DNA from: Arthrobacter pigmenti | Lineage (GTDB): Bacteria; Actinomycetota; Actinomycetes; Actinomycetales; Micrococcaceae | Assembly: GCF_011927905.1 (NCBI RefSeq) | Contig: NZ_JAATJL010000001.1 | Location: forward strand, 2,542,001 to 2,606,000 | Reading direction: 5' to 3' | Length of the DNA stretch: 64,000 nt | The notes under the pieces: generated by a model | Seen by the model: only the letters and a program-made list of their open reading frames with translations | Databases searched by the model: none | What the model was told of the DNA's origin: nothing | Shown here: piece after piece, positions 31,202 through 40,101 of the stretch | Layout of the letters: each line of letters begins with the position of its first letter | How positions within the stretch are numbered: the first letter of the stretch is position 1 | Program-made: the position numbers and the translations under genes

Positions 31202-32579
31202 AACGTTCGTCCTCGCGGGCCGCCAGTTCCAGGTGGTCGGATTCCACCAGGCCTGCGGCCAGGGTGTTGCCGTCGGAGGGGTCGATGACCAGGAAAGCTC
31301 CGGTGCGGCGGAAGTTCACGTAGTTGTCCACGGGCAGCGGTGCTGCCAGGCGAATGTGGACGGTCCCGATGTCGTTGAGCTCAAGGCCCGACGCCGGTTG
31401 ATCGGCGAACGTGGAGAGATCCAGTTTGTTGATGACCTGGCGAACCAGTCCCTGGACCGTCTTGCTGCCGTGCTTGATGAGGAGCCGCGAGCCCTCTTTC
31501 AGCGGCTTCGGCGACAGCCAACAGAGTGCTGCGTAGAGGTCCTGGGTGGGCTGAGGAAGGGCTGCTGCGGGTCCCGCTTCGGCGAGGAGGTCTCCTCGGG
31601 CGATGTCGATGTCGTCGGCGAGACGAAGCACCACTGACTGCGGCGCGAAAGCCTCAACGAGCTCCTGCCCTGCAAAGTCGATGCCGGTCACCGTGGTTTC
31701 ACGGCCGGACGGCTGCACCGTCACGGCGTCGCCTACGCGGATGGAGCCGGCCGCAACCTGTCCCGCGTACCCGCGGTAGTCGCGGTAGCCTTCCGCGTCG
31801 AGCCCGGGTGCCACAGCGCCCTGCGGACGGATGACCGTCTGCACGGGGAAGCGGAACGCCTCGATGTCCGTCTCAAGATCCGCCAACGCCGGCAGCTGCT
31901 CGAGGGTTTCCAGGAGCGACGGACCGTTGTACCAGGGGGTCTTCGCCGACCGGTCCACCACGTTGTCGCCTTCAAGGGCGGAAACGGGGATGATGGCAGG
32001 TTCGTCGACCTTGAGCTCCCGGGCGGCCTGCTTGAGCTGGGCCTCGACATCGCGGAAGACGGCTTCGCTGTAGTCCACGAGGTCGATCTTGTTCACCGCC
32101 ACGATGATGTGCGCGACGCGCAGCAGCCTCGACACCGCAAGGTGCCTGCGGGTCTGCTCCAGCACGCCCTTGCGGGCGTCAATGAGTACGACGACGGCGT
32201 CGGCCGTGGACGCGCCGGTCACGGTGTTCTTCGTGTACTGCACATGCCCGGGGGTGTCCGCGAGGATGAAGGTGCGGTTCGCGGTGGCGAAGTAGCGGTA
32301 CGCCACGTCGATGGTGATGCCCTGTTCACGCTCGGCACGCAGTCCGTCGGTGAGCAGCGCAAGGTCCAGTCCCCCGCGCTCGCCACCGAAACCACGCTCA
32401 GCTGAGGTGCGGGCAACGGCGTCGAGCTGGTCGGCCAGGACCGACTTGCTGTCGTGCAGGAGCCTGCCCACGAGGGTGGACTTGCCGTCGTCGACCGAGC
32501 CCGCCGTGGCGAACCGGAACAGGGTCGAGTGCTCGAGGGCGGTTTCTACTGCGGTGGTGCTCTGAACTGCTGTGCTCAT
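31191..32579 (-). CDS. cysN: Sulfate adenylyltransferase subunit 1 (GTPase)
   Basis: A 462-residue EF-Tu-like GTPase: G1 GSVDDGKST (27-35), G3 DTPGHVQYT, G4 NKIDLVD, then domains II and III. It drives ATP-sulfurylase activity (ATP + sulfate to APS + PPi) as partner of CysD. No CysC kinase domain is fused, which agrees with the APS-type CysH. Its ATG overlaps the cysD stop at one base. Confidence 0.95.
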   Translation of the reverse strand: MSTAVQSTTAVETALEHSTLFRFATAGSVDDGKSTLVGRLLHDSKSVLADQLDAVARTSAERGFGGERGGLDLALLTDGLRAEREQGITIDVAYRYFATANRTFILADTPGHVQYTKNTVTGASTADAVVVLIDARKGVLEQTRRHLAVSRLLRVAHIIVAVNKIDLVDYSEAVFRDVEAQLKQAARELKVDEPAIIPVSALEGDNVVDRSAKTPWYNGPSLLETLEQLPALADLETDIEAFRFPVQTVIRPQGAVAPGLDAEGYRDYRGYAGQVAAGSIRVGDAVTVQPSGRETTVTGIDFAGQELVEAFAPQSVVLRLADDIDIARGDLLAEAGPAAALPQPTQDLYAALCWLSPKPLKEGSRLLIKHGSKTVQGLVRQVINKLDLSTFADQPASGLELNDIGTVHIRLAAPLPVDNYVNFRRTGAFLVIDPSDGNTLAAGLVESDHLELAAREDERYDI

Positions 32580-33715
32580 TAGAAGTACCCGTCTTTCTTG
32601 CGGTCTTCCATCGCGGCTTCGGAAATCCGGTCATCTGCCCGGGTTGCGCCGCGTTCGGTGAGGGTGCTGAGGGCTACTTCGCGTACTACTGCCGCAACGT
32701 CCGCGGCGTCAGATTCGACGGCGCCGGTGCAGGACATGTCACCCACGGTCCGGTAGCGGACGGTGCGGGTTTCAACGGTTTCCTTCTCGGTGGGCAGGGA
32801 AACGTCGCCGATTGCACGCCACATCCCGTCGCGGCGGAACACCTCACGCTCATGGGCGTAGTAAAGGCCCGGCAGCTCGATGTTCTCGCGTTCGATGTAA
32901 CGCCACACGTCCAACTCGGTCCAGTTGCTGATCGGGAAGGCGCGCACATGCTGGCCGACTGTGTGCCGGCCGTTGTAAAGATTCCACAGCTCAGGCCGCT
33001 GGTTGCGGGGATCCCATTGGCCGAATTCGTCGCGCAGGCTCAGGATCCGTTCCTTGGCACGTGCCTTGTCCTCATCGCGACGGCCGCCGCCGAAAACGGC
33101 GTCGAACTTGTTGGCGTTGATGGTGTCCAGCAGCGGAACCGTCTGAAGCGGGTTCCGGGTGCCGTCGGCGCGGTCCTGCAGCTCACCGCGGTCGATGTAC
33201 TCCTGGACGGACCCGACAACGAGCCTCACGCCAAGCCGCTCGACAGTCCGGTCCCGGAACTCGATGACCTCTGGGAAGTTATGCCCCGTATCGACGTGCA
33301 GCACCGGAAACGGAACCTTCCCGGGCCAGAAAGCCTTCGTGGCAAGGTGCAGCATGACCACGGAATCCTTGCCGCCCGAAAACAGCAGCGCAGGCCGCTC
33401 AAACTCGGCAACAACCTCGCGAATGATGTGAATCGCTTCGGACTCAAGGGCGTCGAGGCTTGAGAGCCGCTTCGCTGTGGGCGCGGAGGCAGCAAATGCC
33501 GGCCCCGCCCCTTCGCCGCGCGGCTGATCTTCGATCAGTCCGCCACGCGGCTTCGACAGCGTCGGCTGGCTTCCCACCGCTCGCAAGCTCGCGGCGGTGC
33601 CCTCGCCAGCAGACTTAGATGCCACTCCCTGGCCGGCATTTGCTGCCTCTGCGCTTTGGGGGGCACCTTCAGTCTTCACGCTAGCGTCCTCAATGGTTTG
33701 GGTGGTGTGGCTCAT
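32579..33715 (-). CDS. cysD: Sulfate adenylyltransferase subunit 2 with inserted N-terminal segment
   Basis: A 378-residue ATP-sulfurylase subunit; the P-loop SGGKDS is at 113-118, followed by VLHVDTGHNFPEVIEFRD and GRRDEDKARAKERI, as expected. Family members are about 300 residues, so about 80 extra residues precede LSSLDALESEAIHIIRE. Residues about 21-79 are encoded exactly by a 174-bp palindromic element (see 33481). The ATG overlaps the cysH stop as ATGA. Makes APS with CysN. Confidence 0.93.
   Translation of the reverse strand: MSHTTQTIEDASVKTEGAPQSAEAANAGQGVASKSAGEGTAASLRAVGSQPTLSKPRGGLIEDQPRGEGAGPAFAASAPTAKRLSSLDALESEAIHIIREVVAEFERPALLFSGGKDSVVMLHLATKAFWPGKVPFPVLHVDTGHNFPEVIEFRDRTVERLGVRLVVGSVQEYIDRGELQDRADGTRNPLQTVPLLDTINANKFDAVFGGGRRDEDKARAKERILSLRDEFGQWDPRNQRPELWNLYNGRHTVGQHVRAFPISNWTELDVWRYIERENIELPGLYYAHEREVFRRDGMWRAIGDVSLPTEKETVETRTVRYRTVGDMSCTGAVESDAADVAAVVREVALSTLTERGATRADDRISEAAMEDRKKDGYF
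33481..33654. repeat. 174-bp palindromic element inserted in frame in cysD
   Basis: Terminal inverted repeats of 24 bp (33481-33504 and 33631-33654) match at 23 of 24 positions; the shared core is AGGCAGCAAATGCCGGCC. The interior holds two further hairpins, CTGATC-TTC-GATCAG and CACCGC...GCGGTG. Length is 58 codons with no stop on the coding strand, so cysD stays open. No transposase. Only one copy was seen in the window. Confidence 0.7.
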
Positions 33716-34461
33716 TGGTGGATTCCGCACTCTGTCTTCGCTAGGCCGGCCCAACGGCCGGCTCGTGGGTCTTCTCCTGGGGCTACTGGACGGGTGCAGG
33801 GCTTGCAGCCGATCGAGGGGTAGCCGTTGGAGAGGAGCATGTTGACGGGCACCTGGTGCTCTCCGGCATAGTCGAGCAGCTCGTCGAAGGTCCACGCAGC
33901 AACCGGGTTGATCTTGACCAGTTTGTGGACATGGTCCCAGGTCACCAACGGGGTGTTGGTCCGTGTGGGGCCTTCGTCTCGGCGGACACCGGTGAACCAG
34001 ACTTCGTAACCGGACAGGGCCTTCTTGAGGGGGTCCATTTTCCGGAGTGCGCAGCACTGTGCAGGGTCCCGACCGAACAGGTCCTTGCCGTATTCAGCAT
34101 CCTGTTCAGCCACGGTCTGTTCGGGCATGACATTGACGATGTTGATGTCGAGCTGCTCCGCGACTTCGTCCCGCGTGATGTGGGTTTCGGTGAAGTGATA
34201 CCCGGTCTCAAGGAACAGGACGTCAACGCCGGGATACTGCTGTGAGACCAGGTGCGGAAGCACCGCATCGGCCATGGAGCAGGCGACTGCGGCCTGGGAA
34301 ACGTCGAAGTTCCGCACAACCCACGCAATGACGTCCCGGGAATCGGCATCCCAGCCGAGTTCCTCGGCACCGGCCGCAGCCAACGCCCGCAGCTCCTCTT
34401 CTGAGCGACGGGGAAGACGCGCCTGATCCGACACGGCAGTGAACTCAGGGGCCTCACTCAC
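33712..34461 (-). CDS. cysH: Assimilatory adenylyl-sulfate (APS) reductase
   Basis: A 249-residue reductase. Two Cys pairs that bind a [4Fe-4S] cluster are present (CC at 136-137, C219 and C222 in GCKPC), and the catalytic Cys is at about 245 in KTECGIHQ. The cluster cysteines indicate APS rather than PAPS as substrate. APS plus two thiols gives sulfite and AMP. GTG at 34461 overlaps the cysI stop (GTGA). Confidence 0.92.
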   Translation of the reverse strand: MSEAPEFTAVSDQARLPRRSEEELRALAAAGAEELGWDADSRDVIAWVVRNFDVSQAAVACSMADAVLPHLVSQQYPGVDVLFLETGYHFTETHITRDEVAEQLDINIVNVMPEQTVAEQDAEYGKDLFGRDPAQCCALRKMDPLKKALSGYEVWFTGVRRDEGPTRTNTPLVTWDHVHKLVKINPVAAWTFDELLDYAGEHQVPVNMLLSNGYPSIGCKPCTRPVAPGEDPRAGRWAGLAKTECGIHQ

Positions 34462-36206
34462 TGCAGCACTCCTTCCTCGGCGCGATGCGCCCATTCGGCG
34501 AAGGTCTCGTTGTTCTTACGGTCGGCGGCGTATTGGCGGACCACGCGTTCGACGTAGTCGGGGAGATTGTCGACGGTGACCTTGAGTCCGCGGATGGTGC
34601 GGCCGAGGCCCGCCTCTTCGCGGTTGGAGTCCGCGAGTCCGCCACCGAGGTGAACCTGGAAGCCTGGCGTGGGATCGCCGTCGGGCGTTGGAAGCATCAT
34701 GCCTTTGAGGCCGATGTCCGCCGTCTGGATGCGGGCGCAGGAGTTCGGGCAGCCGTTGATGTGCAGGGCGATGGGTTGCGTCAGGGTTCCGTTGTCAACG
34801 AGGTCGGCCAGGCGGCGTTCAAGTTCGGCGATGGCCGTCGCTGCCGTCACCTTCGTCTCGACGATCGCGAGCTTGCAGTACTCGATGCCGGTGCACGCGA
34901 TGGTGGAACGGCGGAACAGTGACGGCCGGGCGGAGAGGCCCAGTGCGTCGAGTTCAGCGACGAGGGATTCAACGTGATCCTCCTCGACGTCGAGGATCAC
35001 AAGCTTCTGGTGCGGGGTGGTGCGCAGGCGCGTGGTGCCGTGTGCCTCGAGCGTGTCGGCGAGGGACGTCAGGATGGTGCCGGAGACGCGGCCCACCGTC
35101 GGCGCAACGCCGATGAAGAACTTGCCGTCCTTCTGTTCGTGGATGCCCACGTGGTCGCCGGGGGTTGGCGGCTTCGGCGCGGCCGGGCCATCCGGCAGTT
35201 CGAAGCCGAGGTATTCGTCCTGCAGAATCTGCCGGAACTTCTCCGGTCCCCAGTCATTGAGGAGGAACTTCAGGCGGGCCTTGGTGCGCATGCGGCGGTA
35301 GCCGTAGTCGCGGAAGATGCTGGTGACGCCGAGCCATACTTCGGCAGCGACATCGGCGGACACGAATGCTCCGAGGCGTTCCGCGAGACGCGCGTTCGTG
35401 GAGAGCCCGCCGCCGACCCACAGGTCGTAACCTGCTCCGAGTTCCGGGTGGACAACGCCGACGAGAGCGAAATCGTTGATCTCATGGACCACGTCCTGGC
35501 TGGGGTGTCCGGTGATCGCGGTCTTGTACTTCCGCGGGAGGTTCGCCAGTTCGGGGTCACCGATGAACCGCTCGCTCAGTTCGTGGATGAGCGGTGTGGG
35601 ATCAATGATTTCGTCTTTGGCGATACCTGCGACCGGCGAGCCGAGGATCACGCGGGGAACGTCACCGCATGCTTCCGTCGTGGAGAGGTTCACGGCCTCC
35701 AGCCGGTTCCAAATTTCAGGAACGTCCTCGACGCGGATCCAGTGGAGCTGGATGTTCTGGCGGTCAGTGATGTCCGCAGAGTCCCGCGCGAACTCCGTCG
35801 AGATTTCGCCGATGACGCGCAACTGGTGCGTGGTCAGGGCCCCGCCGTCAATGCGGACGCGGAGCATGAAGTACTTGTCTTCGAGTTCGTGCGGCTCAAG
35901 CGTGGCGGTCTTGCCGCCGTCGATCCCCTGCCGGCGCTGCGTGTACAGACCCCACCAGCGGAAACGCCCATGGAGATCGGTGCCGTCGATCGATTCGAAA
36001 CCGTTCTTGGAGTAGATCTGCTCGATCCGCTCACGGACGTTGAGCCCGTTGTCCTCCTGCTTCCAGGTTTCGTTGGCGTTGAGCGGAGTGGTGCCGTCCA
36101 CCTTCCACTGGCCATGCGGCTTGGCGGCAGGCCGGTTTGCCCGCGCAGGCTTGGTCCGCGCGGCAGCGTTGGCCTGGGCGGCGTCGGTCACGACTGAACT
36201 CGTCAT
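34458..36206 (-). CDS. cysI: Ferredoxin-dependent sulfite reductase
   Basis: A 582-residue siroheme protein with duplicated ferrodoxin-fold halves. The siroheme/[4Fe-4S] cysteines are in TACTGIEYCKLA and NGCPNSCARIQTADIGLKG. It reduces sulfite to sulfide with six electrons, probably via ferredoxin kept reduced by FprA. ATG at 36206 is preferred because TACTGT ends 6 bases upstream (leaderless pattern). First gene of the sulfur operon. No small CysX ferredoxin gene is present between cysI and cysH. Confidence 0.95.
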   Translation of the reverse strand: MTSSVVTDAAQANAAARTKPARANRPAAKPHGQWKVDGTTPLNANETWKQEDNGLNVRERIEQIYSKNGFESIDGTDLHGRFRWWGLYTQRRQGIDGGKTATLEPHELEDKYFMLRVRIDGGALTTHQLRVIGEISTEFARDSADITDRQNIQLHWIRVEDVPEIWNRLEAVNLSTTEACGDVPRVILGSPVAGIAKDEIIDPTPLIHELSERFIGDPELANLPRKYKTAITGHPSQDVVHEINDFALVGVVHPELGAGYDLWVGGGLSTNARLAERLGAFVSADVAAEVWLGVTSIFRDYGYRRMRTKARLKFLLNDWGPEKFRQILQDEYLGFELPDGPAAPKPPTPGDHVGIHEQKDGKFFIGVAPTVGRVSGTILTSLADTLEAHGTTRLRTTPHQKLVILDVEEDHVESLVAELDALGLSARPSLFRRSTIACTGIEYCKLAIVETKVTAATAIAELERRLADLVDNGTLTQPIALHINGCPNSCARIQTADIGLKGMMLPTPDGDPTPGFQVHLGGGLADSNREEAGLGRTIRGLKVTVDNLPDYVERVVRQYAADRKNNETFAEWAHRAEEGVLQ

Positions 36207-38693: not shown

Positions 38694-39797
38694 CTAGACG
38701 TCGCGGCTGACGACAGCCTGCGCGAAGCTCGCCAGCGCCTGTTTCACGGTGGTGTCGGGCAGCGGATCCAGCGCGGCGACGGCGTCGTCAGCCCACTGTT
38801 GTGCAACCGCCCAGGCCTCCTGGGTTGCCGGGTGCTCACGAAGGGCAGAGACCGCCTCAGCCAGGGCCTCATCCGAGGTGAGGTCCCCGTCCACCAGGGC
38901 GAGCACCCGCACAGCGGATTCGTCGCCGGAAGTGGCCGCCTGCCGCAGTAGCAGCACCGGGAGAGTGGGAACGCCTTCCCGCAGGTCCGTGCCTGGTGAT
39001 TTGCCGGACTTCACCTTCAGCCCGGTGACGTCAATGACGTCGTCGGCCAGTTGGAATGCCACGCCGACCTTCTCGCCGTACGAGACCATGACGTCGACAG
39101 CTGACGCCGGCGCATCCGCGAAGATTGCACCGAGCTGACCCGAGGCTGCGACCAGCGAACCGGTCTTGTCAGCGATGACCGAAAGATAATGCGCTACCGG
39201 GTCCTCGCCGTCCTGTGGCCCCACGGTCTCATGCAGCTGCCCAAGGCACAACCGCTCGAAAGTACGGGCCTGGATCCCGAGGGCGCGGCTTCCCAGTTCG
39301 GAGACCAGAATCGACGCCCGTGCGAAGATCAGGTCTCCGGTCAGGATCGCAACGGAGTTTCCCCACACCTCGTGCGCGGTCGGAGCGCCGCGGCGGTAAG
39401 GCGCGGAGTCCATGACGTCGTCGTGATAGAGGGTGGCGAGGTGGGTCAATTCGACGACGACGGCGGCAACCACCACCTCCGGCCTCGTTGCGTTCCCGAG
39501 GTGGGAGGCGAGGATGGTCAGCAGCGGACGGATTCGCTTGCCACCGGCTTCGACGAGGTGGCGGGACGTTGCATCGGCGAGCGGGTCGGAGTTGGCGATC
39601 GCCTCACGCAGCTGCTTCTCGACCTTCGCAAGGCATGTTGACACTGCCGGACCGAGTTGGGGGTCCTCCGCAATCAGCGCAAAGCCGGCAGGCAGTCGCA
39701 AACCAGTGGCGATGACGCCGGTGGAAGTATCCATCTCGTCGACGATCGGACGCGGATGGCCGGCGCTGGTCCAGCTGCTGTGGGAGGAATCCGTCAT
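38694..39797 (-). CDS. Polyprenyl diphosphate synthase for menaquinone side chain
   Basis: A 367-residue all-trans prenyltransferase. The first Asp-rich motif is LYHDDVMDSAPYRRG (DDVMD at 126-130) and the second is QLADDVIDVTG. It condenses IPP units onto an allylic diphosphate to give a long-chain (hepta- to nona-) prenyl diphosphate. Neighbours MenJ-like reductase and MenG tie it to menaquinone. A 216-bp tandem repeat lies just upstream of the ATG. Chain length cannot be read from the sequence. Confidence 0.9.
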   Translation of the reverse strand: MTDSSHSSWTSAGHPRPIVDEMDTSTGVIATGLRLPAGFALIAEDPQLGPAVSTCLAKVEKQLREAIANSDPLADATSRHLVEAGGKRIRPLLTILASHLGNATRPEVVVAAVVVELTHLATLYHDDVMDSAPYRRGAPTAHEVWGNSVAILTGDLIFARASILVSELGSRALGIQARTFERLCLGQLHETVGPQDGEDPVAHYLSVIADKTGSLVAASGQLGAIFADAPASAVDVMVSYGEKVGVAFQLADDVIDVTGLKVKSGKSPGTDLREGVPTLPVLLLRQAATSGDESAVRVLALVDGDLTSDEALAEAVSALREHPATQEAWAVAQQWADDAVAALDPLPDTTVKQALASFAQAVVSRDV

Positions 39798-39808
39798 GTG
39801 CCTAAGCC

Positions 39809-40024
39809 TATCGGCAGGGCCCCTACTTGAGCGCCAGCGAAAGTTGGGGGGCCGGTAGGCGCTATCGGCAGGGCCCCTACTTGAGCGCCAGCGAAAGTTG
39901 GGGGGCCGGTAGGCGCTATCGGCAGGGCCCCTACTTGAGCGCCAGCGAAAGTTGGGGGGCCGGTAGGCGCTATCGGCAGGGCCCCTACTTGAGCGCCAGC
40001 GAAAGTTGGGGGGCCGGTAGGCAC
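39809..40024. repeat. Four tandem 54-bp units with hairpin potential
   Basis: Four essentially identical copies of a 54-bp unit start at 39809, 39863, 39917 and 39971; one base differs at the end of the fourth, and a few bases of a fifth follow. Each contains GGGCCCCTACTT and AAGTTGGGGGGCC, able to pair as an imperfect hairpin. The array sits 11 bp upstream of the polyprenyl synthase ATG. Frames through it give an 18-residue repeat peptide, an artefact of 54 = 3 x 18. Confidence 0.9.
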
Positions 40025-40048
40025 TATCGGTGGAGGAACGTGGGAACT

Positions 40049-40101
40049 TTCGTGCAGCTCAGGTGAGCCGATGGCGTCGGAAGCCCCCGTAGCTGCACGA
40101 A
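40049..40101. terminator. Palindromic element family A, copy 2
   Basis: Arms TTCGTGCAGCT (40049-40059) and AGCTGCACGAA (40091-40101), identical to the arms at 23722 apart from the last base, with a 31-bp centre. Placed 3' of the MenJ-like gene, as a transcript end would be. Confidence 0.7.

Follow-up and report, generated by a model that had tools for sequence, protein, structure and literature searches.

The 174-bp block found in frame within cysD at positions 33481–33654 of the window (the whole 64-kb stretch of DNA that was analysed) is very likely one copy from a family of small, non-autonomous, mobile palindromes that occurs in Arthrobacter-like bacteria. Based on sequence comparison, the window copy is one member of a dispersed family of imperfect palindromes that is confined, among the genomes searched, to the Arthrobacter-like family, and it is a composite in which a base element is joined by an extra hairpin module of 54 nt. 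The copy runs antisense to cysD. Dispersal, genic and intergenic sites, both orientations, a shared codon phase, covarying arms and alleles with and without the element are all evident from the comparisons, and the element is apparently mobile. Within genes it adds a stop-free, in-frame peptide to a terminus or a linker.

The arms of the window block (33481–33504 and 33631–33654) are complementary at 23 of 24 positions and lie 126 nt apart. A scan for 24-nt inverted repeats within 300 nt, allowing one mismatch, gave this pair alone in the window and nothing in 20 windows simulated with a first-order Markov model. The RNA fold of the single strand 33475–33660 reached −116.5 kcal/mol (z = −6.75) and the DNA fold of the same interval had z = −5.98, with none of 200 shuffles as good in either case. 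The sequence-only reading had described a 174-bp, in-frame and stop-free block with 24-bp arms (23/24) and two smaller hairpins; the arm match and the translation (58 codons without a stop in cysD across the 174 nt) confirmed the former, and the two inner hairpins were seen in the fold. Its statement that no other copy lies in the window also stands, as the strings for the arms, boxes, hairpin and module occur once each; the 8-nt linker string occurs twice. A peptide stretch such as ...GLIEDQPRGEGAG... would be expected from translation of the insert, and covariance model R1 matches the window at 33483–33653 on the plus strand. The features are as follows.

32579..33715, minus strand: coding sequence of cysD (378 aa; sulfate adenylyltransferase subunit 2), whose N-terminal extension holds the insert (translation; PF01507 at residues 108–331; 1zun_A from residue 81)
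33481..33654, plus strand: whole palindromic element (composite, type II), antisense to cysD (arms, fold, covariance model)
33481..33504, plus strand: outer arm 1 (inverted-repeat match, covarying arm columns)
33503..33516, plus strand: conserved 5' box CCCCGCCCCTTCGC, mostly unpaired in the predicted fold (nearly or fully invariant in most columns of alignment A2)
33517..33551, plus strand: inner hairpin 1, a variable covarying stem (fold, covariation)
33552..33559, plus strand: conserved linker, TTCGACAG in the window (alignment A2)
33560..33617, plus strand: extra hairpin module B (comparison of copies)
33618..33629, plus strand: conserved 3' box GATGCCACTCCC (alignment A2)
33631..33654, plus strand: outer arm 2 (inverted-repeat match)
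33712..34494, minus strand: cysH, its stop overlapping the cysD start codon as ATGA (gene listing, locus comparison)

Fetched loci are denoted here by L numbers and genomes by G numbers; g10 is a genus rich in copies, and copies without module B are termed simple copies. Along the plus strand of the window, the element consists of an arm, the CCCCGCCCCTTCGC box, a hairpin with a variable stem, a TCCGACAG linker, a GGCCCGATGCCACTCCC box and the second arm. The boxes are conserved across copies; the outer arms differ between copies yet remain self-complementary, and these covarying arms are the most unusual feature of the element. In an alignment of 28 copies, the basic unit measured 117 nt with 27 counted pairs, and 93.4% of the cells were paired compared with 73.0% after shuffling. 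Cells changed on both sides of a pair numbered 135 (38.4 in shuffled data), the covariation score was 0.479 (0.111 in shuffled data, with 0/500 shuffles as high), and sliding the partner by 1–3 columns lowered pairing to 34–50%. Copies paired better with their own arm than with swapped arms in the cysD antisense, cysD sense and outside-gene sets (0/5000 permutations each); the same test was not significant for the antisense sets of cysH (2029/5000) and the DUF4194 C-terminus (jetB-C/A; 856/5000).

The core of the window copy (33503–33629) measures 127 nt, against 73 nt in simple copies; the additional 54 nt come with module B, which occupies the place of their short GGCCCGATGCC loop. Like modules were found in L048 (the cysD of G036), in two g10 cysD genes (L239 and L264) and in two intergenic copies (L216 and L227). 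Separately, hairpin motifs resembling a stand-alone module B (CTTCCCA ... GCGGTGCCCTCG, the flanks being variable but complementary) occur in intergenic-looking positions at L040 and L044 and, in looser form, at L042; they apparently represent another dispersed palindrome family.

The family became visible through a comparison of cysD 5' ends. Whole-element blastn within the window's own genome and genus gave few matches because only the boxes are conserved; queries with the L050 element, and then with the element of Arthrobacter sp. 9V (L064, in cysH), revealed copies elsewhere. The closest named relatives of the window CysD belong to Arthrobacter and Pseudarthrobacter, from which the window's family was judged to be that of Arthrobacter. 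Genus g10 was placed close to Arthrobacter on the identical reading of the element's surroundings in G271 (L190, genus g10) and in Arthrobacter ulcerisalmonis (L063). When the best two candidates of every genome were scored, matches at E ≤ 1e-4 came from 89 of the 395 genomes of the family, spread over 9 of 32 genera, a count that includes partial matches and two genomes (G145 and G170) in which no box was seen on reading. The covariance model built from the 28 copies gave 2–6 matches in each of six g10 genomes and 1–2 matches in four genomes of the window's genus, its own genome (one copy) included, and none in G012. An even draw from the order, searched with stricter filters, yielded matches in 4/119 genomes, all from the same family.

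The search of the genome and its relatives that had been proposed from the sequence alone thus came out differently for the two: relatives hold dispersed copies in other genes and between genes, and none was found elsewhere in the own genome. There, the window copy was recovered alone by blastn (besides weak partial matches), by a pattern search allowing 3 mismatches and by the covariance model (150 of 4365 first-look candidates scored). Phages gave no match to the element, and an exact 23-base pattern was not found in viral contigs. Plasmids gave no match to a 113-nt query from the L064 element at E ≤ 0.01; at E ≤ 10 there were 55 records, all partial, none covering 80% of the query, and the 15 listed came from unrelated genera. 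A 251-nt query produced three weak partial plasmid matches, Arthrobacter sp. ERGS1:01 among them. As a further observation, one locus (L035, L158, L168, L210, L216, L224, L225 and L361) appears to carry the element in at least three genera with diverged, self-complementary arms, and in several of these genomes it follows a gene ending ...VQKTTLGAK..D(N/D)DK. This copy may be old and is possibly used as a terminator.

A special case of the mobile-palindrome reading, in which the element would be a classical MITE belonging to one IS family, sharing terminal repeats between copies and duplicating its target, accommodates the size, the inverted repeats and the dispersal. The inner 8–10 arm bases (GATGCCGC) are similar in most coding copies, as such a relationship would have it, but they differ in the copies outside genes, and the outer arms vary from site to site. 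No convincing target-site duplication was found, the one possible candidate being an imperfect direct repeat of 8 nt that flanks the insert in cysH. Furthermore, no autonomous partner was found in ten stretches around partial matches (genes listed for L355 only), which comprised full copies (L356, L359, L361), partial copies (L355, L357, L358, L360, L362; those of L357 and L358 adjoin masked N runs) and two stretches with no box (L363, L364). We rate this special case as rather unlikely, and the standard form of a MITE was set aside on its terminal inverted repeats, given that the outer arms differ while the boxes are conserved.

The table of copies held 71 rows, from which L154 and L275 were dropped as false matches, leaving 69 simple copies; composite copies with module B were left out, as their spacing does not fit. 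A copy was called coding when a host motif lay within about 300 nt and the frame was open from the middle of the element to that motif. By this definition 49 copies lie in genes and 20 are classed outside, the latter meaning that none of five host motifs was found (the codon score was viewed for L199–L227). No copy had its host motif behind a stop. The coding copies are distributed as follows.

cysD: 18 sense, 13 antisense
cysH: 5 antisense
DUF4194 gene, C-terminus: 6 antisense, 3 sense
DUF4194 gene, N-terminus: 1 antisense
2-oxoacid dehydrogenase E2, linker: 3 sense

Pfam searches on one or two examples of each host found PF01507 in CysD and CysH, DUF4194 beside DUF3375, and an acyltransferase with lipoyl (30–99) and E3-binding (215–249) domains in the E2 host.

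The occurrence of the element at cysD was surveyed across related genomes. In the window's genus, cysD was matched at E ≤ 1e-50 in 14/38 genomes; among ten cysH-cysD loci, the motif was present in six (the window's own and L048–L052) and absent in four (L047, L053–L055), with the cysD of L051 carrying the 3' box only, inside another palindrome. In g10, cysD was matched at E ≤ 1e-100 in 127/131 genomes and the 5' end was taken for 126. Counting one row per locus over the two genera, 33 of 134 cysD loci carry the motif (22 sense, 11 antisense) and 101 are without it, the last class including other inserts and possible footprints. A wider set of 149 loci, where named loci partly repeat genomes, contributed 142 to the count (motif sense in 23, antisense in 11 and missing from 108). 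The remaining seven were left out, five (L056–L059, L238) for want of a recognisable cysH neighbour and two (L165, L277) because of the frame check; in L165 and L238 the element is nevertheless present and the cysD frame through it is open. Presence and absence are thus mixed among cysD orthologs. The outcome that the sequence-only reading had set against its own proposal, namely that all Arthrobacter-group CysD proteins carry the segment with no dispersed copies, did not occur.

These distributions bear on whether the block could instead be a structured cis-regulatory RNA, i.e. a leader of the sulfur operon, acting as an attenuator or like a riboswitch, that is translated by chance. A very stable fold, strong covariation and the presence of cysD and cysH among the host genes are what such an RNA would show, but the element is read in either orientation in cysD, occurs also in the DUF4194 gene, the E2 linker and outside genes, and is lacking from the 101 sampled cysD loci given above. 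No Rfam structured-RNA family matched at E ≤ 1 over 33300–33900. In addition, the cysD start and the cysH stop share an ATGA in the window, and 142/142 counted cysH-cysD loci show such an overlap (ATGA or GTGA), insert present or absent; because this overlap is kept with and without the insert, the block lies inside the cysD coding sequence and not in a leader. We consider a regulatory RNA quite improbable.

The mobile-palindrome reading is further consistent with the way in which copies fit the frames of their hosts. Core length was 73 nt in 49/49 coding copies and 75 nt (15 copies), 74 nt (4) or 73 nt (1) in the 20 outside copies (Fisher p = 4e-16, with rows that are non-independent through shared descent). 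Codon phase relative to the host motif was identical (phase 0) in 48/49 coding copies, where again copies at one site share descent and do not count as independent events. The sole exception is the cysH copy of L277 (genome G475). In this genome the cysH and cysD copies are both shifted by one base in a G/C run, and it was the cysD copy that failed the frame check; the shift is probably a sequencing error, because the G475 assembly is 79% complete with 6% contamination.

The sense phase-0 frame was open in 24/24 sense, 2/25 antisense and 15/20 other copies, and the antisense phase-0 frame in 25/25 antisense, 22/24 sense and 10/20 other copies. Among sense copies nearly all six frames were open (22–24/24 each), so that an open frame by itself is uninformative for sense copies. 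Two sense frames were open in antisense copies as well (23/25 and 25/25). Openness is telling for the antisense copies, because their hairpins would stop the sense frame. The shared codon phase is telling for sense and antisense copies alike.

Frame openness also speaks to an invertible phase-variation switch, in which the 24-bp arms would recombine and flip the block to turn cysD on or off. Both orientations do occur at cysD within one genus (antisense in the window, sense in L048, both with module B), and an in silico flip of the window copy puts a stop in cysD, as it does for 23/25 antisense copies. By contrast, 22/24 sense copies stay open when flipped, so that flipping would not switch them, and the orientation-specific hairpins suggest a stable orientation. 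This switch is in our view very improbable.

The insert lies where the host proteins would be expected to accept it. In an AlphaFold2 model of the window CysD (mean pLDDT 66.9), residues 1–81 have pLDDT < 50, as do residues 213–254 and 355–378, and the first helix of the model starts at residue 86. Alignment to the solved structure of CysD, 1zun_A (sulfate adenylyltransferase subunit 2), begins only at residue 81. The suggestion that the extension lies outside the fold is upheld by both the model and the alignment. Of the 58 inserted residues, 81% are A, P, G, S, E, Q, K or R, compared with 49% from residue 86 on, and the E2 insert sits in the linker between the lipoyl and E3-binding domains. 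The ∼58 extra residues ahead of the CysD fold are probably disordered and neutral. The placement of the cysD inserts in a variable N-terminus, predicted to be disordered in the window protein, would also fit an ordinary low-complexity extension of ancestral origin that is palindromic by chance, but we find this scarcely credible. Most relatives lack the insert, the arms covary, and the reading is contradicted by homologous copies dispersed, in either orientation, through other genes and intergenic stretches.

A number of alleles that lack the full motif resemble footprints left in frame by the element. Two such cysD genes (L260, L274) retain the start of the sense peptide, one locus (L268) retains one cysH arm, and another (L340) looks like both arms joined with the core gone; being footprint-like, these four are unusable as pre-insertion sites. 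Core fragments are likewise kept in frame at the DUF4194 N-terminus of L355 and in the E2 linker of L362 (the latter read by eye). A tree of the first 345 nt of cysD gave 20 presence/absence changes by parsimony, and was set aside as a count of gains and losses, as only 8/131 inner branches were starred.

The cysD insertion region seems, from the inserts seen there, to be a hotspot for several repeat families. A second short repeat, VIEPVEI or VVEPVET (DNA GTTGAGCCTGTCGA), was found at the same N- or C-terminal sites in cysD (L309, L322, L323), cysH (L281, L282, L318) and the DUF4194 gene (L197); repeats of this type are widespread among Micrococcales. In L335, L350, L312 and L353 this part of cysD holds yet another insert (HRASEERASVSKPRGE), which in L353 has a further hairpin-like stretch inside.

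We envisage the following history for the mobile palindrome. Copies would be inserted by a putative activity, and most insertions in genes would be purged by selection. The survivors would be those that keep the frame, contain no stops and lie in disordered termini or linkers. Palindrome-prone deletion could later remove copies and leave in-frame footprints, and hairpin template switching and/or hairpin selection may rewrite one arm to match the other. Coding copies might partly have spread by gene-to-gene recombination and not by transposition.

A tentative extension of this scheme, which we hold to be possible but somewhat doubtful, is that the element keeps itself palindromic at each site, even in genes, by rewriting one arm from the other. 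At one cysD site, matched arm pairs were found as GAC/GTC (L179), GAT/ATC (L183, L234) and GAA/TTC (L182, L184), which place the amino acids T, I or N on one side and V, I or F on the other. L177, L235 and L238, from the same orthologous-looking cysD set, have one arm mismatch there. Either hairpin selection or template switching inside the hairpin could produce such a matched change. If arm rewriting holds, linked amino-acid changes on both sides of the insert would be dictated by base pairing and not by protein function, and host flank would be recruited into the growing arms.

In-frame coding palindromes are best known from the obligate intracellular Rickettsiales, and Arthrobacter-like actinobacteria are free-living and easily grown. 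The present element resembles the Rickettsia (RPE) and Wolbachia (WPE) palindromic elements in being an imperfect palindrome with in-frame genic and intergenic copies. RPEs are described as palindromes of about 105–146 bp that lie in frame in unrelated protein genes and in intergenic regions, mostly without inactivation (PMC2229807, PMC10969869, PMC4224334), with one premature stop noted among such insertions in the excerpt of PMC4224334. The 117-nt unit falls within the approximate 100–150 bp of such imperfect palindromes, the window copy reaching 174 nt through module B, and the Arthrobacter-family copies are likewise stop-free in frame in unrelated genes and present between genes (the 49 coding and 20 outside copies). 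Differences are found in the host phylum, in the conserved parts (here the internal boxes, whereas the outer arms vary and covary) and in the reading of the element in either orientation in the same codon phase. By analogy, the element appears to work like RPE/WPE and is set beside them by mode of life, without being filed as an RPE; the Rickettsia likeness drawn in the earlier reading holds to that extent, and kinship is claimed no further.

Other small palindromes were also considered. ERIC, YPAL and Correia-type elements are small imperfect palindromes, some of them fused in frame to genes (PMC2229807, excerpts), and in-frame fusion is mentioned for ERIC and Yersinia elements (PMC2229807); enterobacterial and archaeal cases of in-frame palindromes are named in PMC2229807 and PMC10969869. 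Most of the small elements listed in PMC2229807 have defined terminal repeats and a target duplication, whereas no signature of that kind was established for the Arthrobacter family. REP/BIME sequences mobilised by RAYT are palindromes near, and sometimes inside, genes, with REPs of 20–40 bp (PMC3733652, excerpts); they differ from the present family in length and in that the Y1 transposase PF01797 (Y1_Tnp, RAYT), the one transposase family sought, was found in 0/11 genomes, the same search being positive in 5/14 control genomes. No transposase was identified for the element. A REP/RAYT element was rejected on this result. Among the matches listed in the literature on Arthrobacter, Actinobacteria and Micrococcaceae, this family was described in no title and in no opening of an abstract. 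The Arthrobacter-like family would make it testable how such elements move and how proteins accept them, and also whether hairpin-driven mutation or selection is the keeper of matched arms. For the same genes, the many sequenced genomes provide sites with the element, sites without it and footprints.

Lastly, two further sets of repeats were observed in the window. A tandem array with a 54-nt unit lies at 39754–40077, where five overlapping 108-nt copies are spaced 54 nt apart, the central copies being 99–100% identical and the outer copies 65–69%. The repeat pairs 5288–5451/8418–8581 (164 nt) and 5947–6246/9077–9376 (300 nt) are 73–75% identical and 3130 nt apart, and possibly reflect paralogous neighbouring genes, judging from their similarity and spacing.
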